Assembly: GCA_030695565.1 (NCBI GenBank)
Contig: JAUYRZ010000021.1
Span: forward strand, 1-44,210
Length of the DNA: 44,210 nt
Direction of reading: 5' to 3'
Origin: Archangium sp.
GTDB taxonomy: Bacteria; Myxococcota; Myxococcia; Myxococcales; Myxococcaceae
Shown: piece by piece, positions 8,639-22,786 of the stretch
Position numbering within the stretch: position 1 is the first letter of the stretch
Layout: every line of letters starts with the position of its first letter
Notes under the pieces: model-generated
Databases searched by the model: none
The model's input: only the letters and a program-made list of their open reading frames with translations
What the model was told of the DNA's origin: nothing
Made by a program: the position numbers and the translations under genes

Positions 8639-10471
8639 TTGATCTCCTATGCTCAGAACTTCGAAGACGTGATGCTTTGGCGCGCCCTGCGCCACATCGA
8701 GAATGGCTTTTACGTCGACATCGGCGCCCAAGACCCAATCATCGACTCGGTCAGCATGGGGCTCTACGAGCAGGGGTGGCGAGGCGTTCACGTCGAGCCC
8801 ACGCCCGCCTACGCTGAGGCGCTGCGGGTCGCCCGTCCCGGCGAGAGAGTCGTTCAAGTCGCGATCGGGACCGAGGCTGCGCTGATTCCCTTCTTCGAGA
8901 TTCCGGGAACGGGCATCAGCACGGGCGACGCCGAGATCGCTGGACGGCATGAAGCAGCGGGCTACGCCCACAGGCGTATCGAAGTGCCCTGCATCACCTT
9001 GAGCACCCTCTTCGATACCTTGCCCGCGCGCGACGTCCACTGGCTCAAGGTTGACGTCGAAGGAATGGAAGGCCAGGTCCTGCGCAGTTGGGCTCCCTCT
9101 CCGGTGCGCCCCTGGATCGTGCTTGTCGAATCGACCCGACCTCGCACTGCTGACCCGAGCTTCGAAGATTGGGAATCGGTAATCCTGGGTCTGGGCTACC
9201 AGTTTGCCTACTCGGACGGCCTGAATCGCTACTACGTCTCGGAGGCGCATCCGGAGTTGCTGGCCAAGTTCGCGACCCCTCCGAACGTCTTCGATGACTT
9301 CTCGCTGTCGGGGTTTGCATCGAACGGGTTCTGCGCCCGGCTCACCGAGGTCATCGAGAAGCAGCGCGCCCGCATCGACGAGTTGGACTCCGCGTGGCAC
9401 GCGCACGAAGCAAAACTCGAGAGCCTGCGCGCAGATGCGGCCTTTCGCGAACGTTTCGTCGAGTTGGAAAAGACGCTGGTCGAGCAAAGAAGGGCCGCTG
9501 ACGCACGGCTCGACGAAGCTCTCGCGCATGCGCGGCAGATCAACACCGCCCTGCAGCAGATGACGGCGGCCAAAGACGAAGTCAGTGTACGACTGGCAAA
9601 GCTTCAAGAGCAGGAGCAGGTCCGCTTGCATGACCTCTCGCTACGCAATCAGGAACTGGCCAGCTTCGAGCGCGTAGTGGCCCAGCGCGACGCGCTGATC
9701 GATGGTCTCCAGACGCAGCTCATCTCGGTTCGCGCCAACGCGACCCAGCTCAAAGAAGAGTTCGAGCGGCAGCGAGAGGCCGCCAATGCAAAGTTCAACC
9801 TTCGGTCCGTGCTGACGAAGAACCCATTGCGTTCGTTCCTGGGCCGAGAACGCGACGGCGAATTAATCGAGAAAGCACCCATGACAGTGCCGAAGAATCC
9901 CCCTTCTCCCTCGCCGCAAGCGAGCGTCTCATTCCTGCTCACCCTCTTCGACGTGGCTTTCGTGCGTGCCGCCTACGAAGTGCTGCTCGGGCGCGAGGCT
10001 GACCCGAGCGGGCTCGAGACGTACCTGGGCTCACTGCGCGGCGGTGTCACGCGTGAAAGCATCATCGTGGAGATCGCCCTCTCGGAAGAAGCGAAGGGCT
10101 TGGGCAGGGTCGTAGCAGGGCTGCCGGAGCTGCTCGAAGAGGCCGAAGCCAACCGCCCCAACCTGGCCCGGCGGCTCCAGCAGCGCCTCGGTGGCCCGGA
10201 CTCGCTCGAGTCAATCGCTCGCATGCTGCGCGCTCAGGAAAACCGGAACGCAGCATTTTCTACCGATCTCGACCAGCGGCTGAGCCGATTGGAGTCGTCG
10301 GTGGAGCACGTGCAGTCGATCTTCGCCGAAGGTGAGAGCCTGCACTCGCTCTCACAGGCGCACCGTTCAGAGACGATCGAAGGACTCAGGTTGATGGCGA
10401 AGACGCGGACCACCCATCGAATCCTTCAGGACAATCTCTTTCATCGGCTCAAAGCCGCGACGAAGCGCTAG
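8639..10471 (+). CDS. FkbM-family methyltransferase fused to coiled coil and DUF4214 domain
   Basis: A 610-residue multidomain protein. Residues 1-227 are an FkbM-type SAM-dependent methyltransferase: VDIGA near 26-30 in the SAM-binding loop, HVEP at 51-54, and KVDVEG at 137-142, expected to O-methylate a sugar. Residues about 235-395 are heptad-rich with charged residues, a predicted coiled coil. After a proline-rich linker, about 436-485 (AAYEVLLGREADPSGL) matches DUF4214, a small domain found in glycan-related proteins. The C-terminus is helical again. The start is TTG, supported by a strong Shine-Dalgarno. The methyltransferase part is paralogous to the gene at 15196, and the DUF4214 to the end of the gene at 14346. 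It is the first gene of the 8639-19920 run; the next ATG is 9 bases away. Confidence 0.82.
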   Translation: MISYAQNFEDVMLWRALRHIENGFYVDIGAQDPIIDSVSMGLYEQGWRGVHVEPTPAYAEALRVARPGERVVQVAIGTEAALIPFFEIPGTGISTGDAEIAGRHEAAGYAHRRIEVPCITLSTLFDTLPARDVHWLKVDVEGMEGQVLRSWAPSPVRPWIVLVESTRPRTADPSFEDWESVILGLGYQFAYSDGLNRYYVSEAHPELLAKFATPPNVFDDFSLSGFASNGFCARLTEVIEKQRARIDELDSAWHAHEAKLESLRADAAFRERFVELEKTLVEQRRAADARLDEALAHARQINTALQQMTAAKDEVSVRLAKLQEQEQVRLHDLSLRNQELASFERVVAQRDALIDGLQTQLISVRANATQLKEEFERQREAANAKFNLRSVLTKNPLRSFLGRERDGELIEKAPMTVPKNPPSPSPQASVSFLLTLFDVAFVRAAYEVLLGREADPSGLETYLGSLRGGVTRESIIVEIALSEEAKGLGRVVAGLPELLEEAEANRPNLARRLQQRLGGPDSLESIARMLRAQENRNAAFSTDLDQRLSRLESSVEHVQSIFAEGESLHSLSQAHRSETIEGLRLMAKTRTTHRILQDNLFHRLKAATKR

Positions 10472-10480
10472 GCCGAAAAT

Positions 10481-13420
10481 ATGCACATCGCTCTTGATTT
10501 GCAGTCATGCCAGACGGGCTCCCGGCTGGGAGGCATTGGGCGCTATTCGCTCGAACTTGCGAAGGCAATGGTGCGCCGCCGCTCTCGGCACGAGTTCTCG
10601 TTGATTCTGAGCGAAGGCGCTGAGGGTGGCTCTCAGGTCCGCGCGGCATTCGCCGATCTGATCGCGCCCGATCGCATTCGCACCTTCGCGACACCGACTC
10701 ACACCGCGGAGTTTGGAAACCCGCTGAGCATGGTGCGTGCAGCTGAGCTGGTACGTGAGCAGTTCCTCCTCGAGCTGGCCCCCGACTGTGTGCACGTGTC
10801 GAGTTTGTTCGAGGGTCTGCACGAGCCGTTCGTCACTTCAGTGGGTCAGGTCTACCCGTCGGACCGTACGGCGGTGACGCTCTACGACCTGATCCCCTGG
10901 GCGCAGAAGGAGCGCTACCTCGCCGACAAGCGGGCCCTCGGCCACTACGTCACCAAGCTCGAGTACCTCAAGCGGGCAGGCTTGCTGCTGGCGATCTCCG
11001 ACTTCTCGCGGCGTGAAGCCAGCGACCTGTTGAACATCGATCCCGAGCGGGTGGTGAACATCAGCTCGGCGGTCGACGCCCGGTTCCACCACCTCGACCT
11101 GAGCATCGCTGCGCAGACCGAGCTCAAGGGCCGCTTCGGGATCGCCGACAAGTTCTTGATGTACACGGGCAGCTTCGACGTTCGGAAGAACCACGCCACT
11201 TTGATCCGAGCATTCGGGCAGATCCCCGCGGCAGCCCGTGCCAACTACCAATTGCTGATGGTCGGCAACGGGTGGGATGGCATGTACAGCCAGCTGCGGA
11301 ACGTCGCCGCCGAATCGGGGCTCAAGGAGCGCGATCTCGTCTTTGCGGGCCATGTCGCCGAAGCGGACCTCGTACCGCTGTACAACGCGTGCAGCCTGTT
11401 CGTGTTTCCGTCGCTGGCCGAAGGCTTTGGCCTGCCGGTGCTCGAGGCCATGTCGTGCGGAACCCCCACGTTGTGCTCCGACACCACCAGCCTCCCCGAG
11501 GTGATGGGGCTGCCGGCAGCGATGTTCGACCCCAGTGACGTCAAGAGTGTGGCCGCCCGCATTCAGCAGGCGCTCGTCGACCCCGACTTCAGGGATGCCT
11601 TGCGGGCTCACGGGCTCGAGCGGGCCAAGCTCTTTTCGTGGGACGAATCGGCCCGGCTCGCTCTGGCCGCCCTGGAGGAGAAGTTCGAGCCTTCGGTCTC
11701 TCGGCCCCGCGTCGCGCCCAGCGTGATCGCCGGGCCTCCGGTGGAGAAGCTGCTCTCGCGCATTCACGAAATCCCGGGCGCTGTGAAGCTGCCCGACGCT
11801 GCCTTCCGCGACCTCGCTCGCTGCATCGCCACCAACCACCTCACCTTGCGCGCCTCGACGTCAATCGACGCGGGCGCGCTCTCGGCGATCAGAACGGGCT
11901 GGGTCACCAGCTGGAACACCCGCTGCGGCATCGCGGCGTACTCGAAGTTCCTGCTGGCCAGCTGGCCGGCACCGGTCACCGTCTTCGCCCCGCACACCGA
12001 CTGGACCACCGAATTCGACGGTCCCAACGTGGTGCGCTGCTGGAATCAGGGCATCACCGACGACCTCGAAGATCTCACCCGGGAGATTCTCCGGGAGAAC
12101 CTCGAGATGGTTATTCTCCAGTTCAACTACGGGTTCTTCAACCTGCAATCGCTGGAGAGGCTGATCAACCGGCTCTCGAATCTCGGCGTGCGCGTGGTGA
12201 TCACCTTCCACTCCACCCAGGATCCCGAGCCCGCGCGCCGCCTGAAGGACATCGCCCCCGCCCTCCAGCGATGCACGGCGCTGATCGTGCACACGCTGCG
12301 CGACACCGCGGCGCTCGGTGCGATCGGCTGCAAACGCAACGTCACCTTGCTTCCCCAGGGCGTCATCGAGAGTTCGAAGACGGCACCGGCACGTACGGGG
12401 CCGGGCAAGACGATCGCCACCTACGGTTTCGCTTTGCCCAACAAGGGGCTGATGCAGGTACTCGAGGCGTTCGCTCACCTGCGCCAGCACACCAAGACGC
12501 CGCTGCGGCTGCTGATGGTGAACGCGGAGTACCCGCAAGGCCTCTCGGCGGCAGTGCTGGCCGAGCTGGCAGCCCGGGTCGAAGAACTCGGACTGCAAGA
12601 CTGCGTGGAGTTGCACTCCAAGTACCTGCCTGAAGCGCAAAGCCTCGATCTGCTCCGGCAGGCAGACCTGATCGTCAATGCCTACCAACAGACCGGCGAG
12701 TCATCGAGCGCCGCCATTCGCATGGCCCTCGCTTCCGGGCGGCCCGTGGTGGTGAGCCCGCTGCCCATCTTCGATGATGTCAAGGCGTGCACCTTTGCGT
12801 TGCCTGGCGTCGACGCTGAGGCGATCGCCGCGGGTCTGGCGAAGGTGTTCGAAGAGCTCGACACCGGCTCAGGTCACGCGCAGCAGATCGAAGCAGCCGC
12901 CGACCGGTGGCGCGCGGCACACGTCGTGAAAACGGTGACCAAGGCGCTGTTTCTCACCTCGGCAAAGTTCCTGGACGAAACCGAACAGTACGACGCCTCC
13001 ACCGACTACGAGCTGGCGCCCGGCGGAACGTCGTTCAGCTTTTTGGGAGCAGACCCGGCGCTCAAGACGCAGGTGGGCAGGGTGCAGGGGCAACTTTTGG
13101 TCTCCACCGCTCGGGGAGGGCACCTGCTGCATGGCCCCTACATTTCGGCGGCACCAGGTCAGTACCGCGCCCGGCTGGCGGGGCGGCTTTCAGGCAAAGG
13201 CCGGGCGGTGATGGACGTGTGCGCCAAGGCGGGAGCGCTGGTTTTGACGCAGGTCGCGCTCGAGCCGACCGATGAGCTGTCGACGCTCGCCAACATCAGC
13301 TTCCTTGTGCCCCTGGGAGGTGTGAAAGATCTCGAGGTCAGAGTGGAGGTCGACGCGAACGTCTCACTCGAGCTCGCGCGGCTGCACCTGGAACCTGTCG
13401 TCGAACCGCAGGCGGAGTGA
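10481..13420 (+). CDS. Two-domain glycosyltransferase (tandem GT4 units) with C-terminal beta-rich domain
   Basis: A 979-residue cytosolic glycosyltransferase. Residues 1 to about 410 form a complete GT4 (GT-B fold) enzyme: the GGIGRY glycine loop near 17-22, TGSFDVRKNH in the donor domain around 229-238, and the E-x7-E motif as EGFGLPVLE (314-322). A second GT4-like unit runs from about 474 (SWNTRCGIAAYSKFL) to 840, with QTGESSSAAIRMALASGRP in place of the classic E-x7-E region. Residues about 868-975 are a beta-rich module (LLHGPY, PGQYRA) resembling one in the 949-residue membrane protein at 19937. Two transferases in one chain would suit consecutive or alternating linkages. The first unit looks canonical; donor and acceptor cannot be read. 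The next gene starts 3 bases after the stop. Confidence 0.87.
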   Translation: MHIALDLQSCQTGSRLGGIGRYSLELAKAMVRRRSRHEFSLILSEGAEGGSQVRAAFADLIAPDRIRTFATPTHTAEFGNPLSMVRAAELVREQFLLELAPDCVHVSSLFEGLHEPFVTSVGQVYPSDRTAVTLYDLIPWAQKERYLADKRALGHYVTKLEYLKRAGLLLAISDFSRREASDLLNIDPERVVNISSAVDARFHHLDLSIAAQTELKGRFGIADKFLMYTGSFDVRKNHATLIRAFGQIPAAARANYQLLMVGNGWDGMYSQLRNVAAESGLKERDLVFAGHVAEADLVPLYNACSLFVFPSLAEGFGLPVLEAMSCGTPTLCSDTTSLPEVMGLPAAMFDPSDVKSVAARIQQALVDPDFRDALRAHGLERAKLFSWDESARLALAALEEKFEPSVSRPRVAPSVIAGPPVEKLLSRIHEIPGAVKLPDAAFRDLARCIATNHLTLRASTSIDAGALSAIRTGWVTSWNTRCGIAAYSKFLLASWPAPVTVFAPHTDWTTEFDGPNVVRCWNQGITDDLEDLTREILRENLEMVILQFNYGFFNLQSLERLINRLSNLGVRVVITFHSTQDPEPARRLKDIAPALQRCTALIVHTLRDTAALGAIGCKRNVTLLPQGVIESSKTAPARTGPGKTIATYGFALPNKGLMQVLEAFAHLRQHTKTPLRLLMVNAEYPQGLSAAVLAELAARVEELGLQDCVELHSKYLPEAQSLDLLRQADLIVNAYQQTGESSSAAIRMALASGRPVVVSPLPIFDDVKACTFALPGVDAEAIAAGLAKVFEELDTGSGHAQQIEAAADRWRAAHVVKTVTKALFLTSAKFLDETEQYDASTDYELAPGGTSFSFLGADPALKTQVGRVQGQLLVSTARGGHLLHGPYISAAPGQYRARLAGRLSGKGRAVMDVCAKAGALVLTQVALEPTDELSTLANISFLVPLGGVKDLEVRVEVDANVSLELARLHLEPVVEPQAE

Positions 13421-13423
13421 CCC

Positions 13424-14341
13424 ATGACGCTCAGAGCCGAGTCGTATCGAAGGTACAAGCACGCCCTTCGCGGCGCGTACAACTCGCTTTCGCTGTTTCA
13501 AGACGTCGACGACGAGTCGATGGCCTTCGTGAGCGCGGGCGAGTTGGAGGGGAAGTCGGCGCTCGAGGTGCTGGCGATCATGGAAGGGCCGATTCGAAAG
13601 CGGCTCCAGCGGGTAGGCCCTTCGTTGCTAGGCAAGTTCCTCGAGAAGCCTCGAACGCGCGAGCTCTTCTTCAACAACCAGAAGCTGACGATTCCAGTGC
13701 TCAACGAGCAGGCGGTCGAGTGGTACGAAACGAGCGACGTCTTCAACTTCGACTGTGTCCTGGAGACGTTCTTGGGCCTGCACCACGGCGCTCGCACGAT
13801 TTACGACCTGGGTGGACACCAGGGTCTGTGGGCGGCGTACTACGCGGGGCTCTGCGGCGAGGGCGGGCGCGTGTACAGCTTCGAGCCGTCGATCATCAAC
13901 TTCGAGAGCTCGTGCCTGCTTTTCTTGATGAACGACCTGGTCAACGTCATCAACGTTCCATTCGGCGTGGGCGACAAGCCGGGCCTCGTTCGCAATGTCG
14001 ACAGCGGCGGCATCCTGGTCGACTTCGTCGAGCACAACCTGGGCATCCTGCGCTTCGACCAGGTTTTCTTCGAGCCACCCGACTTCATCAAGATCGACAT
14101 CGAAGGCTTCGAGCACGAGCTGCTCGCCTCCTTCCCGAACCTGTTCAAGTTCTGCCGCAACATGCACCTCGAGTTGCACATCCCCCACCTCGAGCGGCGC
14201 GGGGTCGATTACCTCGAGACCTTCAGGAGGATCCCGTTCGAATCGGTGAGGGTGCGCAACTATCAGTACGGCCAACTGACCGAGGTCGGGCCGAACGACA
14301 AACTCAGCGGCTACTGCAGCCTGATGATCACCCCCCGGTGA
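13424..14341 (+). CDS. FkbM-family SAM-dependent methyltransferase
   Basis: A 305-residue protein whose central and C-terminal part is an FkbM methyltransferase: YDLGGHQG for the SAM-binding loop, SFEPS as the acidic strand-2 motif, and KIDIEGFEHELL as the family signature. A helical N-terminal segment of about 115 residues precedes it and is not a domain I recognise. It probably O-methylates a sugar in the growing glycan. The ATG at 13424 is 3 bases after the preceding stop and the next gene begins 4 bases after its own stop, so it sits firmly inside the operon. It is more distant from the FkbM genes at 8639 and 15196 than those are from each other. Confidence 0.85.
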   Translation: MTLRAESYRRYKHALRGAYNSLSLFQDVDDESMAFVSAGELEGKSALEVLAIMEGPIRKRLQRVGPSLLGKFLEKPRTRELFFNNQKLTIPVLNEQAVEWYETSDVFNFDCVLETFLGLHHGARTIYDLGGHQGLWAAYYAGLCGEGGRVYSFEPSIINFESSCLLFLMNDLVNVINVPFGVGDKPGLVRNVDSGGILVDFVEHNLGILRFDQVFFEPPDFIKIDIEGFEHELLASFPNLFKFCRNMHLELHIPHLERRGVDYLETFRRIPFESVRVRNYQYGQLTEVGPNDKLSGYCSLMITPR

Positions 14342-14345
14342 CACG

Positions 14346-15140
14346 ATGAAGGAGCAAGCGCACAAGAGGTTGAACGTCGGTTGCGGGTTCGACTACCGCC
14401 CCGGCTACGTCAACGTCGATATGCACCAGCGTCACGGCCCAGACGTGGTGGCCGACGTGCTCGACCTCGCCACCTTTCCCTCGGGGTTCTACGAAGAGCT
14501 CGTTGCGCAAGACGTGCTCGAGCACGTGGCCCGATCTGACGTGCGCCGCGCCTTGTTCGAGTGGAATCGGGTGCTCGCGGTGGGTGGTCAGATCTTCGTT
14601 CGCACGACCGAGCTGGGCGGCCTTGTGCGAGCCCTCGAGGCGCCCGAGCACCAGGGCATCTACGATCAAGAACGCCTCATTCAGAACGTCTTCGGAACTC
14701 AGGCCTATCAGGGTGACTTTCACCTGAGCGGTTTCACCGAACCGCTGTTTCGTTTCTACATGTGGGAGGCGGGCTTCGAGGTCAGCTCGATCACGCTCCA
14801 CCAGGGCGTCTTTCTCGACGCCCACGCCCGAAAGTTGAACGATCTGGGCTTCGAGCTCGACCGGGCGGACACCCCCGCCCCGGCCTTCGTCAGCCAGCTC
14901 TTCCGCGCCGTGCTTGGTCGCGAGCCGAACCCCGAGGAGCTTCGCCAGGAGACCGCCGCACTCGATGGCACTTCGCGGCGCAGCCTCATCATGAAGCTGC
15001 TGTTGAGCGACGAGCGCAAAGAGATCATGGCTCGCCGGGTGCCCCCTTTTCCCAGAGCCTTGCACCGGCCGGGGCTTCTCCGTCGTGTGGCGAGACGAGC
15101 CAAGCGCCTTGTCAAAGCGGCGGTGGCTCCGCTGCGGTAG
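14346..15140 (+). CDS. Type 11-like SAM methyltransferase with C-terminal DUF4214 segment
   Basis: A 264-residue protein. The N-terminal half is a small class I methyltransferase: LNVGCGFDYRPGYVNVD is the SAM-binding loop and acidic strand, and QDVLEHVARSD resembles the DVLEHV motif of Methyltransf_11 enzymes encoded in glycan loci. From about residue 180, SQLFRAVLGREPNPEELR and the following MKLLLSDERKE match the DUF4214 pattern also seen in the 610-residue protein at 8639. The last 30 residues are strongly basic with repeated RR/KR, perhaps a membrane- or glycan-associating tail. The substrate is unknown. The start lies 4 bases after the preceding stop. Confidence 0.78.
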   Translation: MKEQAHKRLNVGCGFDYRPGYVNVDMHQRHGPDVVADVLDLATFPSGFYEELVAQDVLEHVARSDVRRALFEWNRVLAVGGQIFVRTTELGGLVRALEAPEHQGIYDQERLIQNVFGTQAYQGDFHLSGFTEPLFRFYMWEAGFEVSSITLHQGVFLDAHARKLNDLGFELDRADTPAPAFVSQLFRAVLGREPNPEELRQETAALDGTSRRSLIMKLLLSDERKEIMARRVPPFPRALHRPGLLRRVARRAKRLVKAAVAPLR

Positions 15141-15195
15141 CGGGCGCCGTCGCCATTGTCTCAAGCACTTCATTCAGTTAAGCCGCGCGGGCCCG

Positions 15196-16197
15196 ATGCC
15201 CTTCGTCTCCTACGCCCAGAACTTCGAGGATGTGCTCCTGTGGCGGGCGCTCAAGAGTGTTCCCAAAGGCGTGTATCTCGACGTGGGCGCCAGTCACCCC
15301 GTGGCAGATTCGGTGACCTTCGCTTTCTACGAGCGCGGCTGGCGAGGCATCAACATCGAGCCCGTGGCCGCTGATCACGCGCTGCTGGCTGAACAGCGCC
15401 CCGGTGACATCAACCTGAACCTCGCGGCGGGTGACCGGAACACCGTGTTGCCGCTCTACCAGTTCGGGGTGAGAGGCCTGGCGACGTTGTCCCCGGCGGT
15501 GACCGATCACCACAAGAAGTTCGGTCTGTCGGCGACGAGCATCGACGTCAAAGTCGTGCCGCTCAGAGACATCTGCGCGGAGTACGTGACTGGCGAGATT
15601 CACTTCCTGAAGATCGACGTCGAAGGCAGCGAAGCCGAGGTGCTGCGCGGCATGGACTTTCAGCGGTGGCGCCCCTGGGTGCTGCTGGTCGAAGCCACCC
15701 TGCCCAACTCGCAAGAACCCACCCACCTGTCCTGGGAGTCGCTGCTGCTCGAGCAGGGCTACGTGTACTGCTACTTCGATGGCCTGAGCAGGTACTACGT
15801 GGCCAAAGAAAGGGAGCGCGCGCTCGCGCCGTTGCTGTCGTGCCAGCCCAACGTGTTCGATCACTTCACCACCGCCCCCCTCGCCCGGGCACAGACCGAG
15901 TTGGAGAAGGCCCGTGCTTCGGTCGATGAAGTCAACCGCAGGTGGGCAGCGGTGCCTGACGGCCCCGCCCTCGCTCGAAAAGTGGCTGATCTCGAGAAGC
16001 AGGTGACGGGTCTTCAGACTGAGCTGACAGCCGCGCGAGAAGCGTGGGCCTCCATGGAAGTGGCAGCCATGGGCGCGCGTCGCACCATCGTCGAGCTCGA
16101 AGGCCGAATCGCCGGCCTGCACGCTGACCCGTTCTTCAAGACGGGCAAGACGCTTCGAGCCCTGACCCAGCGCCTTGCCAAGCGCTCCAACCCTTGA
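15196..16197 (+). CDS. FkbM-family methyltransferase with C-terminal coiled coil
   Basis: A 333-residue protein starting at ATG 15196. The longer frame from 15085 overlaps the previous gene and adds non-homologous residues, so I reject it. FkbM motifs: SYAQNFEDVLLWRAL at the N-terminus, DVGASHP for SAM binding, NIEP, and KIDVEGSEAEVL. The domain ends with QPNVFDHF, parallel to PPNVFDDF in the gene at 8639, so the two are duplicates of one ancestor. Residues from about 230 on are a short coiled coil; this copy lacks DUF4214. It probably O-methylates a sugar. A 55-base gap separates it from the previous gene, and its TGA overlaps the next gene's TTG. Confidence 0.85.
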   Translation: MPFVSYAQNFEDVLLWRALKSVPKGVYLDVGASHPVADSVTFAFYERGWRGINIEPVAADHALLAEQRPGDINLNLAAGDRNTVLPLYQFGVRGLATLSPAVTDHHKKFGLSATSIDVKVVPLRDICAEYVTGEIHFLKIDVEGSEAEVLRGMDFQRWRPWVLLVEATLPNSQEPTHLSWESLLLEQGYVYCYFDGLSRYYVAKERERALAPLLSCQPNVFDHFTTAPLARAQTELEKARASVDEVNRRWAAVPDGPALARKVADLEKQVTGLQTELTAAREAWASMEVAAMGARRTIVELEGRIAGLHADPFFKTGKTLRALTQRLAKRSNP

Positions 16198-17423
16198 GGG
16201 CCCCGTTGTCCGGTTCTCCTTCTGTTCTTTTCCTGACCACCTACCCGCTGGTCGCACCTCGCCACGGTGGCCAGCTCCGGTCGCGCGCCCTGGTGGAGTG
16301 CTACCGGGCGGCGGGATTCACGGTGCAGACCCTCGCCGTGGTCGAGAAGGGCGCCTTCCCCCGGAAGGCCCTCGGCGATCACGATCTCGAGTTTCCCACC
16401 GACGATCCGCGCTGGTTCCTCGATGGCAAGGCGACGCCCATCACCGGCGATCTCCGGTCAGGTGACTTCGCGACTTCTACCGAGGCGTACCAGCGGGTTC
16501 TCGCTTCCCTCCCCCGAACGATCGACGTCTTCCATCTCGAGCAGCCCTGGCTGTTGCCCTTGGTGCTCAAGCTGAAAAGCGAGCCGCGCTACGCAGGTGC
16601 CCGGCTCGTCTATGGCTCGCAGAACATCGAAGCCGCCCTGCGTGAAGCCATCTACCGGCAGATGGGCTTTGCGGGCGGCGCCGCGGTGATCGAACGCGTC
16701 CTCGCGGTGGAGACCTCGGCCTGCCGGCTGGCAGACCTGACGCTGGCGGTCTCACCGAGTGATCACACGACGCTGGAGAAGATCGGTGCACGCTGGGTGT
16801 TGCGCGCCCCCAACGGCATCTCGACGTGGCAGGCGAACCCCCGGCTGGTCGACCGATGGAACGCGAAGATCAACGCCCGCCGCATCGCGCTGTTCGTGGG
16901 CAGCGCCCACCCGCCCAACATCGACGGCTTCATTCGCGCGTTCGGTGATTCCCTGGGGTTCGTTCCCCCTGATTGCCGAATCGTCATCGCGGGCGGCGTG
17001 GGGCCGCACCTGCGCAATCACTACCACCGGGCGAGGTTCGACACCCTCAACCTGTCCCGGCTCGAGGTGACGGGCGAACTCGACGACGATGATCTGGCCG
17101 CCATCAAGAGCCTCACCAGCGTGTTTTTGCTGCCGATCTTCGAAGGTGGCGGCTCGAACATCAAGACGGCGGAGGCAATTCACTCGGGGAAGCCAGTCAT
17201 CGCTACGTCGGTGAGTCTGCGCGGCTTTGAGGCCTACACGCACCTTCCGGAGATCTCCGTTGCAGACGACAAGGAGCGTTTTCGGCTCGCGGTGCGCAAG
17301 GCGCTCTCACCTCAGCCGCCCATTCCGCCCCAGCCCGGAGAGGGAGCGCTGCGGGCGAAGTTACTGTGGCATGAGTGCCTGGCCGTCGTTCCCCCGGCCG
17401 TGCAGAAACTCCTGACCCGATGA
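16194..17423 (+). CDS. Glycosyltransferase, GT4-like family 1 type
   Basis: A 409-residue GT-B-fold enzyme. LTTYPLVAPRHGGQLRS at the N-terminus is the acceptor-domain glycine loop, GSQNIEA and LAVSPSDH mark the middle of the fold, LFVGSAHPPNIDG opens the donor domain, and IFEGGGSNIKTAEAIHSGKP occupies the nucleotide-sugar E-x7-E region. The start is TTG 16194, overlapping the preceding stop as TTGA; TTG 16206 is an alternative. It transfers a sugar from a nucleotide donor to a lipid-linked glycan; specificity cannot be read. The next gene's ATG overlaps its stop as ATGA, indicating translational coupling. Confidence 0.85.
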   Translation: MRAPLSGSPSVLFLTTYPLVAPRHGGQLRSRALVECYRAAGFTVQTLAVVEKGAFPRKALGDHDLEFPTDDPRWFLDGKATPITGDLRSGDFATSTEAYQRVLASLPRTIDVFHLEQPWLLPLVLKLKSEPRYAGARLVYGSQNIEAALREAIYRQMGFAGGAAVIERVLAVETSACRLADLTLAVSPSDHTTLEKIGARWVLRAPNGISTWQANPRLVDRWNAKINARRIALFVGSAHPPNIDGFIRAFGDSLGFVPPDCRIVIAGGVGPHLRNHYHRARFDTLNLSRLEVTGELDDDDLAAIKSLTSVFLLPIFEGGGSNIKTAEAIHSGKPVIATSVSLRGFEAYTHLPEISVADDKERFRLAVRKALSPQPPIPPQPGEGALRAKLLWHECLAVVPPAVQKLLTR

Positions 17424-18862
17424 GCGCCATGCAGACGATCTGGTTCGACGTCACGACGATTGTGCACTGGCATCGGCCGCCGGTGGGCGTGGTTCGCGTC
17501 GAGGCAGAGTGCTTCAAGTACCTGGCGAAGTTGGGGCAGCCCAACATTCGTTTCTGCCACTTCGACAAGCGGGCGCTCTCGTACCATGAGATCGAAGCCA
17601 GCTACGTGCTCGACATCATCAGCCGCTACGGCCAGGAGCAACCTCGCCCGCCGCTTCCCAACACGGAGACGACGGCGAAGCGCGCGACCCAGCGCGCGAA
17701 GCTAGTGCTGCAGAAGCTTTCGCCCACGGTGCGAGAGCCGGTGATCGACTTCGCCACCAAGGTCACCCCCACGCTGCGAAACGCGCTGCATCACTATCGG
17801 CGCGCCTCGAGCGCAGCCAGCCAGGTAGCGACCCAGCTTCAGCAACTGTCGCGGCCTCTTCGTGAGCGCGCAGACAGCAGCGCGGCTGCAGCACCGCCCC
17901 CCGCACCTTTCCGCTCTGGCGACGTGGTGATCTCGGCGGGTTTGGACTGGGATCAGAAAGATCGCGTCTACCTGTATCAGCTCAAGCTGGCGCTCGGGCT
18001 CAAGGTGATCCTGTTCTGCTACGACTTGATCCCCGTGCTGCTGCCCCACCTCTGCGTGGGGGAGGTGGCCGGAATGTTCGCGCGCTACTTCGTCGACGTG
18101 GCTTGGTGCGCCGACGAGGTGATGTGCATTTCAAGGTCGAGTCAGCGCGACTTTCTCAACCTCGTGCACGAAACGGGGGCGCCCGAACCGAAGACCTCCA
18201 TCGTTCGTCTTGGCGCGAACCTCCCTCTCGAGACTGGGGGTGAAGGGGTCGAAGAGCTCGTTCAGGGAAAGTACCTGCTCTTCGTCTCGACCATCGAACG
18301 GCGGAAGAACCACGAAGTCATCTACCGGGCGATCGCCCAGTTGGTGGAGTCGGGGCGCACCGACCTTCCTCAAGTGGTCTTCGTGGGCATGATGGGCTGG
18401 GGCGTGAGCGACTTCCTGAGCGACCTGCGCATCGACCCTCGCGTTCGGGGCCGTTTCACGGTGCTCAACCACGTGACCGACGCTCAGCTCTCGATGCTGT
18501 ACAGCAAGGCCCTGTTCACACTTTACCCGTCACTCTACGAGGGCTGGGGCCTGCCGCTGGCAGAGAGCCTGGCGCACGGGAAGTTCTGCATCGCCTCGAA
18601 CAGCTCCTCGCTCCCTGAGGTGGCCGGGCCGCTCGTCGACTACGTCGACCCATGGGAGAGCCGCCGCTGGGGCGAGCGCATCGCTCACTACCTCGATCAC
18701 CCCGAGGAGCTGGCGCAGAAGGAAAAGGCGATCCGCGAGCGGTACCGGGTTCCGAGTTGGGAAGACACCGGTCGCACCGTCTTCCAGGCTGCACAACGGT
18801 TGCTGAATTCCCCTCCTGCCTCCCCCGAGACGAATGACTCCTCTTCTGCCCCGGCTCTCTGA
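17420..18862 (+). CDS. Glycosyltransferase, GT4 family
   Basis: A 480-residue enzyme starting at ATG 17420, which overlaps the previous stop as ATGA; the upstream extension to 17375 is a frame artefact. The N-terminus (FDVTTIVHWHRPPVGVVRVE) is typical of a GT4 subfamily acting on deoxysugar-containing chains. An insert of about 100 basic, low-complexity residues (about 75-175) separates it from the rest. The donor domain shows STIERRKNHEVIYRA and the E-x7-E motif EGWGLPLAE (E374, E382). The role is to add one sugar to the repeat unit in the cytosol. The 3' end overlaps the start (18834) of the apparent N-terminal fragment of the next gene. Confidence 0.86.
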   Translation: MSAMQTIWFDVTTIVHWHRPPVGVVRVEAECFKYLAKLGQPNIRFCHFDKRALSYHEIEASYVLDIISRYGQEQPRPPLPNTETTAKRATQRAKLVLQKLSPTVREPVIDFATKVTPTLRNALHHYRRASSAASQVATQLQQLSRPLRERADSSAAAAPPPAPFRSGDVVISAGLDWDQKDRVYLYQLKLALGLKVILFCYDLIPVLLPHLCVGEVAGMFARYFVDVAWCADEVMCISRSSQRDFLNLVHETGAPEPKTSIVRLGANLPLETGGEGVEELVQGKYLLFVSTIERRKNHEVIYRAIAQLVESGRTDLPQVVFVGMMGWGVSDFLSDLRIDPRVRGRFTVLNHVTDAQLSMLYSKALFTLYPSLYEGWGLPLAESLAHGKFCIASNSSSLPEVAGPLVDYVDPWESRRWGERIAHYLDHPEELAQKEKAIRERYRVPSWEDTGRTVFQAAQRLLNSPPASPETNDSSSAPAL

Positions 18863-19043
18863 AGGTTTGATGCAGCAGGTCGACCGCGCCGCCGATCGGC
18901 TGCGCGAACGCCTTCGCCCTGGCGCGCGCAGGCCGGGCTCGCAGCCGGCCGTGCACGCCCAGCCCGATGCCGCAGCGCCCCAGGGGCGCGTCAACCAGGC
19001 GATCGCCGCGCGAGCCACGCTGGGCAACGATTTCTTCGGCGGT
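18834..19043 (+). other. Apparent N-terminal coding segment of the following FkbM gene, out of frame by one base
   Basis: From ATG 18834 (overlapping the preceding gene by 29 bases) this frame encodes about 70 plausible residues, with RAADRLRERLRPGARR as an amphipathic basic helix and ending GNDFFGG. The sequence that naturally continues it, VPEDLQLFEKYRFE, is read in the next frame from GTG 19042. Skipping one base at about 19041 joins them. The 18834 frame on its own ends at 19112 after unconvincing sequence. This is either a real frameshift mutation or a one-base assembly error in a G/C-rich run (GGCGGTGCCGG). Confidence 0.5.
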
Positions 19044-19920
19044 GCCGGAAGATCTTCAGCTGTTCGAGAAGTATCGCTTCGAGGCGAGCGGCCTCGAGGG
19101 GCACATCACTGACTATTTCGGGGTGCGAACCCCGGTCGAATATGTGCCCTGGGCCCGGGCCAGCGCTGGCCAGGTTCAAACCGAGGCCCCTCTTCCTGAC
19201 GATGGGGTTCGAGCCGAGGCGATCGAGTATTTCGCGCTGCTGGACACCCTGGAGAACTCGCGAGGTTCAGAGTTTTCGATGATCGAGCTCGGCGCTTCTT
19301 ACGGCCCGTGGACGTGCCTGGGTGGCGTTCTGGCCGCGCGCGCCGGGAAGAAGAAGGTCTCGCTGCGCGCCGTGGAGGCTGCTTCGTTTTTCATGAAGCA
19401 CATTCCTGCCTACTTCGCCCTGAACGGCCTGAAAGGCGGTCGCAAGACGAAGTTCGAGTTGAAGGCGATCCACGGAGCGGTGGGCATCAAGCCGGGCACC
19501 ATGCACTTTCCCAAGGTGACCAGCGCCACGGAGAACGGCGGCCAGGCGCTCTATGAGAACGCCACTTCCGATTACGTCGGGCGAACGGTCGAGCACGAAC
19601 CCGTCGACGTGAAGACGCTCGATGACGTCTTCGAGGGCCTGCCGACGATCGATCTGTTGCACTGCGACATTCAAGGTTCAGAGGATGAAGTGCTCACTTT
19701 TGGTGCAGCCCTTCTCACCCAGCGGGTGCGCCGAATGTTCATCGGCACTCACAGCCGGATCATCGAAGGAAAGCTGATCGAGTGTTTCCACCGGCATGGC
19801 TGGTCGCTGAAGCGCGAGCGGCCAACGCATTTCGAGCACCGCCTCGACACGCTCTCGACGACCGGGATGACGCTACGCGACGGCGGCCAGTATTGGGTGA
19901 ACAACAAGCTCGCGCGGTGA
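18967..19920 (+). CDS. FkbM-like methyltransferase, probably frameshifted near its N-terminus
   Basis: The 317-residue frame holds a full methyltransferase core: MIELGASYGPW for SAM binding, VEAASFFMKHI for the strand-2 region, and LLHCDIQGSEDEVL, the family signature with HCDIQG in place of KIDVEG. The first 25 residues, from ATG 18967, are arginine/serine-rich and look like an out-of-frame reading; convincing sequence begins at VPEDLQLFEKY (19042). The natural N-terminus appears in another frame from 18834, so the intact gene was probably 18834-19920. If the shift is real, a short form from GTG 19042 may still be made. It is the last plus-strand gene of this run and ends 16 bases from a convergent gene. 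Confidence 0.72.
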   Translation: MPQRPRGASTRRSPREPRWATISSAVPEDLQLFEKYRFEASGLEGHITDYFGVRTPVEYVPWARASAGQVQTEAPLPDDGVRAEAIEYFALLDTLENSRGSEFSMIELGASYGPWTCLGGVLAARAGKKKVSLRAVEAASFFMKHIPAYFALNGLKGGRKTKFELKAIHGAVGIKPGTMHFPKVTSATENGGQALYENATSDYVGRTVEHEPVDVKTLDDVFEGLPTIDLLHCDIQGSEDEVLTFGAALLTQRVRRMFIGTHSRIIEGKLIECFHRHGWSLKRERPTHFEHRLDTLSTTGMTLRDGGQYWVNNKLAR

Positions 19921-19936
19921 GCCAGCACCCCGAGTT

Positions 19937-22786
19937 CTAAGGGATCGACTGGATCGAGACGGTTCGCGAAGTCGTCGCCTCGAACCGCCCCCCGAGGCCC
20001 CAGGCTGGGTCAAGCAGGCCCTTTTGAGAGCGATACACCTCGATGAGGACCGCGCAGGTCTCTGATTCGTGGCCCGGGCGGCTCTTGAAGCCCGCGAGGA
20101 GGTGCGACTCAGCGAGCGGATCCAGCTCGGCGTCGACCCGCTCGATGCAGTCCCCGCGCGCGATCAGGTGCTGCCTCTCGTCAGCCCACGGGTTCCACCT
20201 CACGGTGAGCCCAGCGGTGCGTGGAACCCGGGTGCCGGAGGCCGGGGTCGTGAAGGCAATCACGCGCGGCAAACGTACTGTCGACGCCGGCGCGCCGACC
20301 TCAGCGTTCCGGGAAAATGCGATCTGCACGGGCGTGCCCGGGCCCGGGTTGTCGAACTGGGCCGTGTATTCGGTAGCGGCGCCCTGACGCATCATCTCGC
20401 GCGTCGTGTCACCGAGCGTGGCGGTCAGGGTGTCACCGGGCCCCAGTTCGACGGGAATGAGAGAGTCGGAGCGCGTCTTGAGGATGGCCCTGGCTGAAAG
20501 CTTGCCCTCCGCAGGCAGGTCGACAACGAGCTCTGCAGAGAGACCCGATGTCTTGAGGGAGGTCGAACTCAAGGCCTCCCTGCTCGCCAGTGCGTTCCAA
20601 CTGGGGCGAGGCGCTTGGTCGGGCAGCTGCAGCAGCACTCGCTCTGGTCTTTGCACCTCGATGGAACGAAGGGCGAGGCGAGCATTTCCTTCGGTGATGA
20701 CCCGGAACTCCGCTGAGAACACTTCTTCGCGCAGGGTGAAATCGACATGGGCGTCGAGCGTGCCGTCAGAGAGCGCATCGGACGCGCGAACCGTCGTACT
20801 GCCGAAGACCCGGGCCGGCGTCAGGAAGAAGTCGGCAGCGTCCACCGACGCGATGACCGTCTCCGCGGCCACTTCATCGAGCAGCTGAAGATGAAAAGTC
20901 ACCCGGTGCGCGCCAGGGCCGAGTCGCACATAGGGGCCATACGCGAGGTATCCCCTCTCGCGCTCACTGATGCGCTCGCCGGCGGCCCCGCCCTTCACCA
21001 GGCTCAACATCTGCGAGGGCTGAAGCACGAGCACCCTCGGGGTGAGCGTCGCGAAGATGATCCAGTATTCGTGCTCCCCATGGTGCTGCCGCACCCGCCG
21101 GGTTTCGGTCATCGCGATTCCGATTTCCGAGAACGACTGCCTGGCCCGCTCAAAACGGTCGGTGGTTACGTCGAGAATGACCACCGGGTCGCCCGTCTCG
21201 AAGAAGCGGTGCGAGCCATCGGAGTTGCTCATCGTGCACCGGGCCCCACGTGGATAGGTGCTCTCCAAGCTCGACGAGAAGGCCAGATGCGCCGATGAAA
21301 TCGTCAGAAACAGGCGAGACAGGGGGCTGGCCTCGTCGAACCAGTACGCCGGCCTTTGGCCTTTCAGTTCGTCCTGGATGAGCACGATGGCTCGAGCGAC
21401 CGAGGCAGCGGCCTCGGCCCTGATCGCATCTCCAGAGCTCACTCGGTTGATCGGCGCCCCGAGCACCAACGCGATCAGACCTGCTGCGAGGAGCTTCGCG
21501 CCCCGCCGCGGGCGGTTCACCCGCGACCTCCACACCATGATGCCCGCCAGGGCAACTGCGGCGATGAAGGCCTGCAGCCCCGCCAGCGAGCTCGTTCCCC
21601 ACCACGGCAAGGTGAGCTCCATCGATCTGTAGTGATCGTCGAGAGGAGGAAGGATGAACGGTATCTCGAGCCGGTACGCGAGCGCCGAACCAACGACCAA
21701 CACCGCCATCAACGCGGTGCTGTGGCCAATCGACGAGCGGGCGCTGGCGCGCTCCCCGAGCAGCGCCGCGAGCGCCAAGAGCGCAGCGGGAAGGAAGTAC
21801 GAGGCAAACCAAGCGTACTGAAGCCAGTAGCCCGCGCTGAAGATCTCGGCGATGGCCATAAGCGTCATCAACAAGACGAGGTTTCCGTAGGCAAACAATT
21901 CGAAACCAGTCAGCCGGGTGTGACGAAACCACGACATCACCAGCGTGCAGGTGGCCGCCAGCCACGCGAACCCAAGGAGCAGCACCCAGTTCGCTTCAGC
22001 CCACCAGGCCGCGATGGGCTGCTTCCAGCTGGTGCTGGAGATCGCCAGGGCCGCGTCGATGATGGGGCCGAAGAAGAAGAATCTGCCGTAGAGCGCAAAA
22101 CAGAGGCAACCCATCACCACCACGCTGCTCACTGCGCCGGCGGCCAATTCGATACACAACACCCAGCTCTGCGCCGGCCGCTTTGCCTGGTGCAGCCAGA
22201 CCACGAGCGCGGCGGGTGTGAGCAACATCGGGAGCGACATCGGGTGGGTCAAGAGCATGGCTGCGAAACAGCCGCCGGCGACGAAGCCCGCGACGAACCT
22301 GTTCCTGGCGGAGGTGCCCGGCCTGTGCCGACGAGCGATCCCCGCGAGGCCGACCATGAACCACGTCAGCAGTGAACCATCGATGTAGCCCCAGCCAAGG
22401 GACCGCAACAAATACATACAAGTGCCGAAAAGCAGCACGCCGGTCAGTCGGGTCGAAGGGCGGGCGATGCCCGTCAACAGGTCGAGCACGGCGAAGAGAA
22501 CGACGTGCGCGCAAAACAATCCGTAGACAGTGTGCGCGGCCCCTTCGAGGAGAAACCTCGTCAGCAGGTACCGCGGCACGAGCACGAAGGGGCGAGCCGA
22601 GTAGTAGTAGTCGCCGAGCGAAACGCTCGCGTTCACCAGATCCCGGCCCAGCGCCCGGTAGATCCAGGCGTCCAGCATTCCGACCGGAGTGACTGTCCAG
22701 TCGGTCACCAACAACATCAACCAGGGCAGCGACAGCGCCGCGAAGATCGCGAACCGCCGTTCGGGGTCGCCCTGGGCGGGTTTCAT
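19937..22786 (-). CDS. Large polytopic membrane protein (GT-C-like) with long soluble C-terminal region
   Basis: A 949-residue protein. Residues 1 to about 465 contain roughly a dozen hydrophobic helices, with acidic residues in the first large loop (TPVGMLDAWIYRALGRDL), as in polyprenyl-phosphate-dependent glycosyltransferases. Residues about 470-949 are soluble and probably extracytoplasmic. Within them about 605-725 (YLAYGPYVRLGPGAHRV onward) is beta-rich and resembles the C-terminal module of the 979-residue glycosyltransferase at 10481. The last 200 residues look like further beta-sandwich domains (VRLPRVIAFTTPASGTRV). The ATG at 22786 overlaps the upstream reductase stop as ATGA, so it is the last gene of gmd-reductase-membrane protein. 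Glycosyltransferase activity is inferred from topology and context, not from a definitive motif. Confidence 0.72.
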   Translation of the reverse strand: MKPAQGDPERRFAIFAALSLPWLMLLVTDWTVTPVGMLDAWIYRALGRDLVNASVSLGDYYYSARPFVLVPRYLLTRFLLEGAAHTVYGLFCAHVVLFAVLDLLTGIARPSTRLTGVLLFGTCMYLLRSLGWGYIDGSLLTWFMVGLAGIARRHRPGTSARNRFVAGFVAGGCFAAMLLTHPMSLPMLLTPAALVVWLHQAKRPAQSWVLCIELAAGAVSSVVVMGCLCFALYGRFFFFGPIIDAALAISSTSWKQPIAAWWAEANWVLLLGFAWLAATCTLVMSWFRHTRLTGFELFAYGNLVLLMTLMAIAEIFSAGYWLQYAWFASYFLPAALLALAALLGERASARSSIGHSTALMAVLVVGSALAYRLEIPFILPPLDDHYRSMELTLPWWGTSSLAGLQAFIAAVALAGIMVWRSRVNRPRRGAKLLAAGLIALVLGAPINRVSSGDAIRAEAAASVARAIVLIQDELKGQRPAYWFDEASPLSRLFLTISSAHLAFSSSLESTYPRGARCTMSNSDGSHRFFETGDPVVILDVTTDRFERARQSFSEIGIAMTETRRVRQHHGEHEYWIIFATLTPRVLVLQPSQMLSLVKGGAAGERISERERGYLAYGPYVRLGPGAHRVTFHLQLLDEVAAETVIASVDAADFFLTPARVFGSTTVRASDALSDGTLDAHVDFTLREEVFSAEFRVITEGNARLALRSIEVQRPERVLLQLPDQAPRPSWNALASREALSSTSLKTSGLSAELVVDLPAEGKLSARAILKTRSDSLIPVELGPGDTLTATLGDTTREMMRQGAATEYTAQFDNPGPGTPVQIAFSRNAEVGAPASTVRLPRVIAFTTPASGTRVPRTAGLTVRWNPWADERQHLIARGDCIERVDAELDPLAESHLLAGFKSRPGHESETCAVLIEVYRSQKGLLDPAWGLGGRFEATTSRTVSIQSIP

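Follow-up and report, generated by a model that had tools for sequence, protein, structure and literature searches.

Locus and carrier proteins

The window analysed here (the whole stretch of 44,210 nucleotides, which is an entire contig of the 8.5-Mb genome of Archangium sp.) encodes two large proteins, P0001 and P0002, that share a segment which we call the GPY module. The first-pass annotation of this DNA had described the segment as a beta-rich domain common to two glycosyltransferases of different architecture, one cytosolic and one membrane-bound. The two proteins, their modules and the other parts of P0002 are listed below with the basis of each assignment in parentheses (CBM, carbohydrate-binding module; HMM, hidden Markov model; ORF, open reading frame).

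10481..13420, plus strand: P0001, 979 amino acids, two tandem GT4 (GT-B) domains followed by a C-terminal GPY module (Pfam; Methylosinus relative)
13016..13396, plus strand: GPY module of P0001, about residues 846-972, a predicted all-beta CBM-like jelly roll (HMM; model)
13118..13168, plus strand: GxLxxGPYxxxxPGxxR motif of P0001 (pattern match)
19937..22786, minus strand: P0002, 949 amino acids, a multi-pass membrane part, a GPY module and a third, C-terminal domain (ORF, translation, hydropathy, loop charges)
21437..22786, minus strand: membrane-spanning region of P0002, from residue 1 to about 450; resembles GT-C in topology only (hydropathy)
20645..21046, minus strand: GPY module of P0002, about residues 581-714 (HMM; model)
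20903..20953, minus strand: GxLxxGPYxxxxPGxxR motif of P0002 (pattern match)
19940..20581, minus strand: C-terminal (third) domain of P0002, residues 736-949; its relatives are stand-alone proteins of Myxococcota, many of them with a lipobox

P0001 matched the Pfam models Glyco_trans_1_4 and Glycos_transf_1 in two stretches each (E-value 9e-39), which identifies it as a GT4-type glycosyltransferase (GT). A phmmer search with P0001 against solved structures (E-values up to 0.001) returned only GT4-type proteins, all of them matching the first domain. A relative from Methylosinus is 38% identical over its full length, has the same C-terminal end and, as in the window, is followed by an FkbM methyltransferase gene. 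Since no 19-residue stretch of P0001 exceeds a hydropathy of 1.6, the usual limit, the protein is expected to reside in the cytosol. The E-x7-E motif is usual in GT4 enzymes; at this site the second GT domain of P0001 reads GESSSAAIRM (window about 12695-12725, residues about 739-748), the second Glu being absent here and in the Methylosinus relative. This second domain may use other residues or be inactive.

Judged from the hydropathy plot only, P0002 spans the membrane several times, has a large loop behind its first span and ends in a large soluble portion. Sequence searches of Pfam, NCBIfam and the PDB gave no match for the membrane part, which by topology alone would make P0002 a GT-C-type transferase. 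Of the two glycosyltransferases originally proposed, P0001 was therefore borne out by Pfam, whereas no family model calls P0002 a glycosyltransferase. The placement of one module on a cytosolic and one on a membrane protein of the same locus stood, with the view of the membrane protein as an enzyme depending on its topology.

The loop at residues 419-431 of P0002 contains six lysine or arginine residues and no acidic residue. Behind it come the last hydrophobic span and then the C-terminal 500 residues. The third domain had no Pfam match and represents a Myxococcota family, with relatives as stand-alone open frames of 248-462 amino acids in 18 other genomes of 193. A simple lipobox pattern was present in nine of 20 of these stand-alone proteins (one of the nine doubtful), and the Cys880/Cys911 pair of the domain was kept in all 21 aligned rows. 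Because of the loop charge and the kinship of the third domain with lipobox proteins sharing the Cys pair, residues 451-949 of P0002, and hence its GPY module, are expected in the periplasm. A second copy of the third domain is encoded elsewhere in the same genome (G000:C130:70310-70960, L032; 42% identical). Two relatives of P0002 from the same genus differ at their C-terminal ends: the relative in genome G119, a 729-amino-acid open frame (51% identical), ends directly after the GPY module, and the relative in genome G184 has a DUF4214 domain (PF13946, E-value 3.7e-8) at the place of the module.

Homology of the two modules and family placement

The pattern GxLxxGPYxxxxPGxxR occurs once in each protein, at the places where it had first been noticed, as GHLLHGPYISAAPGQYR at residues 880-896 of the 979-residue P0001 and as GYLAYGPYVRLGPGAHR at residues 612-628 of the 949-residue P0002. 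A chance motif was rejected, as the pattern was found in none of 40000 shuffles of P0001 and P0002 and the profile tests described below exceeded their shuffled controls too. The BLASTP alignment of the two proteins covered 23 residues around the motif (9/23 identical, E-value 1e-4) and was too thin to decide on homology, so that profile comparisons were needed.

An hhalign comparison of three cytosolic-type modules (P0001, Methylosinus and a methyltransferase of G119) with two membrane-protein modules (P0002 and G119) was significant (probability 95.1, E-value 3e-8, 93 columns). Cross-family HMM tests were performed on 16 modules using 3200 shuffles as control. An HMM of GT4-type modules only detected the P0002 module at an E-value of 6.8e-8 (best shuffle 2.7). 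With an HMM of membrane-protein modules of other bacteria, constructed without sequences from the window, the E-values were 2.3e-19 for the P0001 module and 1.5e-10 for that of P0002, against a best shuffle of 7.7 for both. Built from nothing but the two membrane modules of window type, an HMM gave weak cross-matches (P0001 module at 0.017, best shuffle 0.89), because two close sequences give a narrow profile. At the level of sequence, homology of the P0001 and P0002 segments well beyond the GPY motif is thus confirmed.

The module had been placed correctly in both proteins, with a start that by HMM lies about 20-30 residues earlier than first given. The spacing of its landmarks is similar, as described, and not equal: in the P0002 copy the stretch from the GPY strand to the phenylalanine-rich strand is longer by about 10 residues. 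The P0001 module was recovered with an independent E-value (iE) of 7e-32 by an HMM that includes the P0001 sequence, and the HMM search of the window turned up no third copy. The best-conserved positions are the G, P, Y, E and R of the GPY strand together with a late strand. Each window module contains no Trp and three Tyr, and secreted copies (see below) contain one to five Trp.

Both modules lie on one 44-kb contig and are the sole two copies found there, as would be expected if they had arisen by a recent duplication inside the locus. This explanation was rejected on account of the tree and the identity values, and we consider it very improbable. The two modules are only 23% identical. A tree of 27 modules places that of P0001 nearest to a Halothiobacillus GT4 module (support 85/44, which is not strong) and joins that of P0002 to its relative from the same genus at 100/99; in this tree, the backbone of which is unresolved, the window copies are not sisters. 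GPY modules are also present in many other loci.

Searches of 20 modules against Pfam returned no convincing match (five different families, one member each, best E-values 0.04-0.09), and the same was true of NCBIfam (one member, E-value 0.02). At the Pfam cut-off neither CBM6 (PF03422) nor CBM35 (PF16990) matched any of the 20 modules, nor did they at E-values up to 0.1. Module profiles searched by sequence against solved structures found no convincing relative (best E-values 0.38 and 0.15). The CBM families compared directly by profile were CBM6 and CBM35. The GPY profile matched CBM6 with a probability of 48.7 (E-value 1.8e-4 for one comparison; at most 0.9 in 100 column shuffles) and CBM35 with a probability of 20.7 (at most 1.0 in 100 column shuffles), and reversed profiles reached at most 0.2. 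These values are suggestive of a sequence kinship to the CBM6 clan. Both links are far weaker than that between CBM6 and CBM35 themselves (probability 98.9), and on these profiles GPY is therefore a separate family that fits no catalogued family found and is filed neither as CBM6 nor as CBM35. Within the family, the profiles of GT-type and secreted-type modules matched each other with a probability of 98.5 (E-value 3e-15, 128 columns). Among the matches listed for open-licence PMC literature on CBMs of polysaccharide enzymes, the porphyran-binding CBM, GxGYxYP proteins and DUF4214 with glycosyltransferases, there was no description of the GPY module.

Occurrence and genomic context of the module

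The GPY module is not special to the P0001/P0002 pair and recurs on many types of protein. In the phylum to which the window belongs, a GPY match at E-values up to 1e-4 was present in 28 of 193 genomes (own genome included). The P0001 module proved a misleading query when used as a single sequence: a scan of genome contigs with the module alone gave no match, and two hits of the phylum search with this module, L007 and L008, were rejected since their frames were not gene-like. No tblastn hits were obtained in plasmids for P0002, the L061 module or a secreted module, or in phages for the same secreted module. The phage family phrog_22113, which is without known function, matched two of the 20 modules at an E-value of 4e-4; phages may carry the module.

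P0001-like proteins with a C-terminal GPY module were found in Methylosinus, Halothiobacillus, Acinetobacter brisouii, Agrobacterium vitis and a Rubrivivax metagenome-assembled genome (MAG). A multi-pass membrane protein that ends in a GPY module, encoded near a P0001-like gene that itself has no module, was found in Desulfosporosinus, Desulfobacteraceae, a deltaproteobacterial MAG, Thiocapsa marina and a Cystobacterineae MAG. Rhizobium jaguaris and Peteryoungia encode a multi-pass membrane protein with a C-terminal GPY module and no P0001-like neighbour was seen there. The Desulfobacteraceae membrane protein (L076, 7889-8686) has two tandem modules that differ strongly from each other. The membrane parts joined to GPY fall into at least four groups (the window type; L076/L096; L079/L203 with L117 and perhaps L201; L065) without kinship detectable by BLAST or small profiles. 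This grouping was obtained with profiles of one to three sequences, so that the groups may still be distantly related. As the membrane parts show no detectable kinship, GPY has probably been added repeatedly to membrane proteins.

Carriers with a recognised catalytic domain, which act on glycans or plausibly do so, are the tandem GT4 proteins, an S-adenosylmethionine-dependent (SAM) methyltransferase in G119 (L006), a Sulfotransfer_2 protein in Azospirillum, a DUF6492 protein in Sphingobium with GPY on its N-terminal side, and a GxGYxYP protein. The latter (L058) is a secreted-type putative hydrolase from Myxococcota, Pfam-confirmed, with three GPY copies, and proteins similar to it have at least two. 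A DUF4214-GPY protein was found in Methylobacterium. In G067 a good module match (L037/L052) lies in an unclear host gene. The weak rows L161 (iE 1e-10), L162 (5e-7) and L163 (1e-5) were not counted as firm members; L162 (G158:C9:1737-2018) is a GPY-like segment near the N-terminus of a sulfatase-family membrane protein, possibly a phosphoethanolamine-transferase-like enzyme. L159 (G184:C66:426531-426848) is an FG-GAP-repeat protein with a GPY module; its gene lies about 13 kb away from that of the P0002 relative in G184.

The C-terminal halves of two tandem-GT4 proteins served as queries to collect 75 loci, all of which encode a protein related to the second half of P0001, and the slot after the second GT domain was surveyed in them. 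At least 350 residues precede the matched second half in 71/75 loci, and in few loci (L061) Pfam was used to test whether this first half is a GT4 domain. After the second GT domain comes a tail of at most 39 amino acids in 66 loci, a GPY module in four and a different tail of 407 amino acids in one, with the tail unjudged (truncated or partly aligned) in the remaining four. The slot is hence nearly always empty or filled by GPY. Altogether 11 modules occur in 10 of the 75 loci. Five of these loci, other than those with GPY in the slot, have it on a membrane protein encoded nearby. In none of the 75 loci was GPY present on both the P0001-like protein and a neighbour within the stretches examined, as it is in the window. 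Outside the P0001-like frame, seven modules (six genes) were counted in 0.75 Mb of the 75 loci versus none in 0.18 Mb of 54 other loci. This control was too small for a claim of enrichment, and the comparison of rates is rough; one of the seven modules, in locus L135, adjoins a GT that is only 27% like P0001.

These counts also bear on the explanation that GPY is a structural cap which stabilises a protein end, its CBM fold no longer having a ligand. It would account for the few aromatic residues of the window copies, for the strong divergence of the family (other modules are mostly about 15-33% identical to that of P0001) and for the many P0001 relatives that have neither the module nor a compensating tail. 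We regard it as improbable, since the carriers have no end in common: the module adjoins at least four unrelated-looking membrane groups, tandem GT4 domains, a methyltransferase and a sulfotransferase, and it precedes the DUF6492 domain.

The genes near P0001 and P0002 encode a GDP-mannose dehydratase, an epimerase, RmlD-like reductases and four FkbM-type methyltransferases, together with other methyltransferases and GT4 and GT2 proteins. Two other membrane proteins of the window have weak PMT_2 or PIG-V matches, below the Pfam cut-offs. On the strength of these neighbouring sugar-nucleotide, methyltransferase, GT4/GT2 and PMT_2/PIG-V-like genes the locus is annotated as a surface-polysaccharide cluster. 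A scan of part of the window ORFs showed no Wzt-like ABC transporter. DUF4214 is another add-on domain in loci of this kind, with two occurrences in the window:

9950..10099, plus strand: DUF4214 on the FkbM methyltransferase upstream of P0001 (Pfam)
14877..15023, plus strand: DUF4214 on a second methyltransferase of the locus (Pfam, E-value 8e-4, below the Pfam cut-off)

Predicted fold and putative function

The fold was predicted separately for the two modules, using an alignment of four GT4-type relatives only for the P0001 module (model 1) and of six membrane-protein modules only for the P0002 module (model 2). Since the alignments had no relatives in common, agreement of the folds was not built in. 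Model 1 had a mean predicted local distance difference test score (pLDDT) of 93.1 and a predicted template modelling score (pTM) of 0.86, and model 2 was of middling confidence (pLDDT 76.5, pTM 0.76). Both are mainly beta, with the main strands in the same order, and for both the best Foldseek match was 5fui, a CBM6 (E-values 1.6e-4 and 6.1e-5 for models 1 and 2, respectively). In the VIA-align comparison the first match of model 1 was the porphyran-binding CBM 8xmz (Z 13.6, root-mean-square deviation (rmsd) 2.2, 120 residues aligned), with CBM16, CBM4, CBM6, CBM35 and CBM36 chains below it. The same chain was second for model 2 (Z 11.9, rmsd 2.7, 118 aligned), which also matched CBM15, CBM16, CBM35 and CBM6 chains.

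The two models cover residues 10-146 of 8xmz, and CBM6, CBM16 and CBM35 chains recur in the lists of both. The comparison of predicted folds that had been named as a check on the two segments was in this way in favour of a shared module, both models aligning to common CBM chains over matching residues (a comparison made via those chains). The GPY module is accordingly predicted to have a CBM-type beta-sandwich fold, with Z-scores to solved CBMs well above 8. The models align with members of CBM6, CBM35, CBM36, CBM16 and CBM4 over nearly the whole module. By eye, the YEAE-like start of secreted GPY copies resembles the EAE start of CBM35 rows, and their last strand with a conserved Asp (IDKV) resembles the LDSL-type end. 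GPY is unlike these families in that no Pfam CBM model matches any of the 20 members and in that the window copies have no Trp.

We propose, with a rough probability of 0.6, that GPY is a glycan-recognition module which would hold its carrier on a polysaccharide. This reading follows from the catalytic carriers, which act or plausibly act on glycans, from the predicted CBM fold and from the precedent of ORF12 described below; the GxGYxYP putative hydrolase with its three copies is a usual setting for CBMs. GPY would then be an evolutionarily mobile beta-sandwich of about 130 residues, mostly appended to proteins that build, decorate or cut polysaccharides. By tethering the carrier to the growing or finished polysaccharide it would raise the local concentration of the acceptor, or select the chain acted on. 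The P0001 copy would keep the tandem GT4 enzyme bound to a lipid-linked chain in the cytosol, and the P0002 copy would keep the membrane protein bound, in the periplasm, to the exported glycan that P0002 would modify. The two window copies may read different parts of the glycan.

Several observations weigh against this proposal. That GPY binds glycan is something we infer from its fold and its carriers, as are the ligand and any effect on catalysis. Aromatic platforms are common in CBMs, and the window modules, to judge by their composition, are poor in them. The conserved positions of the GPY strand and the late strand may be structural. The confidence of model 2 was only middling, and its top VIA-align match was an enzyme, the hinokiresinol synthase 8jmr (Z 12.6, tied within 1 with 8xmz). 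Cry toxin, MAM and Eph receptor domains appear in the same lists, having the same fold and other functions. Most relatives of P0001 (66/75 loci) do without the module, and a number of carriers, the secreted-type Myxococcota proteins L059, L156, L158, L159 and L161, have no recognised catalytic domain.

The shared fold of the MAM and Eph receptor domains, as well as the absence of Trp from both window copies, would equally suit a protein-protein module that forms homodimers or brings enzymes of the locus together without a sugar ligand. The DUF4214 domains could be read likewise, as they sit on two methyltransferases of the locus and at the GPY place in the P0002 relative of G184 as if both were exchangeable docking parts. 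We consider this the less likely account, if the strongest of the competitors, since GPY is also found on secreted hydrolase-type and FG-GAP proteins, where CBMs are usual, and in two tandem copies in the L076 membrane protein. Moreover, one window copy is expected in the cytosol and the other in the periplasm, for which reason the two should not dock with each other. The initial suggestion of a carbohydrate-binding or dimerisation domain can thus be narrowed: its first half agrees with the predicted fold, and pairing of the P0001 with the P0002 copy across the membrane is unlikely.

The glycan-recognition proposal has parallels in known polysaccharide systems. The GT-C enzyme ORF12 (GT136) of Citrobacter youngae has a C-terminal periplasmic CBM, which in isolation binds its O-polysaccharide in vitro (PMC11127046). 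This CBM proved dispensable for function under the conditions examined (PMC11127046), a point against the proposal. Like P0002, ORF12 thus has a periplasmic CBM at the end of a multi-pass protein of a polysaccharide locus; unlike GPY, its CBM is termed immunoglobulin-like, the two being set apart by description and not by sequence (PMC11127046). The same Citrobacter youngae locus has a predicted CBM on the cytosolic part of the transporter, Wzt, and thus, in contrast to the window, on a transporter and not on a glycosyltransferase (PMC11127046). A locus with a CBM on each face of the membrane is therefore already known, through Wzt and ORF12, and the passages of that article consulted here do not state whether the two are kin (PMC11127046). 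One family on two catalytic carriers across the membrane would be new.

A CBM-like domain is also present in the ORF6-O7 chain terminator (PMC11231755). The C-terminal CBM of Wzt and the ORF6-O7 domain are like GPY as add-on beta domains that read, or may read, the nascent glycan, and they differ in their carrier, which is a transporter or a methyltransferase-kinase in place of a tandem GT4 protein (PMC11231755). No Pfam model links GPY to either of them, and the comparison made here is one of description and not of sequence. Putative glycoside hydrolases of the GxGYxYP family often carry CBM6, CBM32 and other such domains (PMC4071793). The Myxococcota member L058 and its similar proteins fit this arrangement with their multiple GPY modules, and the domains reported for the family in the passages concerned are known Pfam domains with no GPY-type module among them (PMC4071793).

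A bolder extension of the glycan-recognition proposal, in our view a speculative and rather doubtful one, is that members of a single uncatalogued GPY family, one on either face of the inner membrane, recognise one and the same glycan epitope before and after flipping, and that swaps of the reader (GPY, DUF4214 or none) rewire which enzyme acts on which chain.

Annotation of enzymes from bacterial surface-polysaccharide loci usually goes no further than the catalytic domain, and their choice of the right chain is largely an open question. A family of CBM fold that lies outside the tested Pfam and NCBIfam models and sits on glycosyltransferases, a methyltransferase, a sulfotransferase and putative hydrolases offers a handle on this choice. 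The isolated GPY module is small and directly testable for polysaccharide binding, and it would let annotators flag membrane proteins without a recognisable catalytic domain as likely glycan enzymes.

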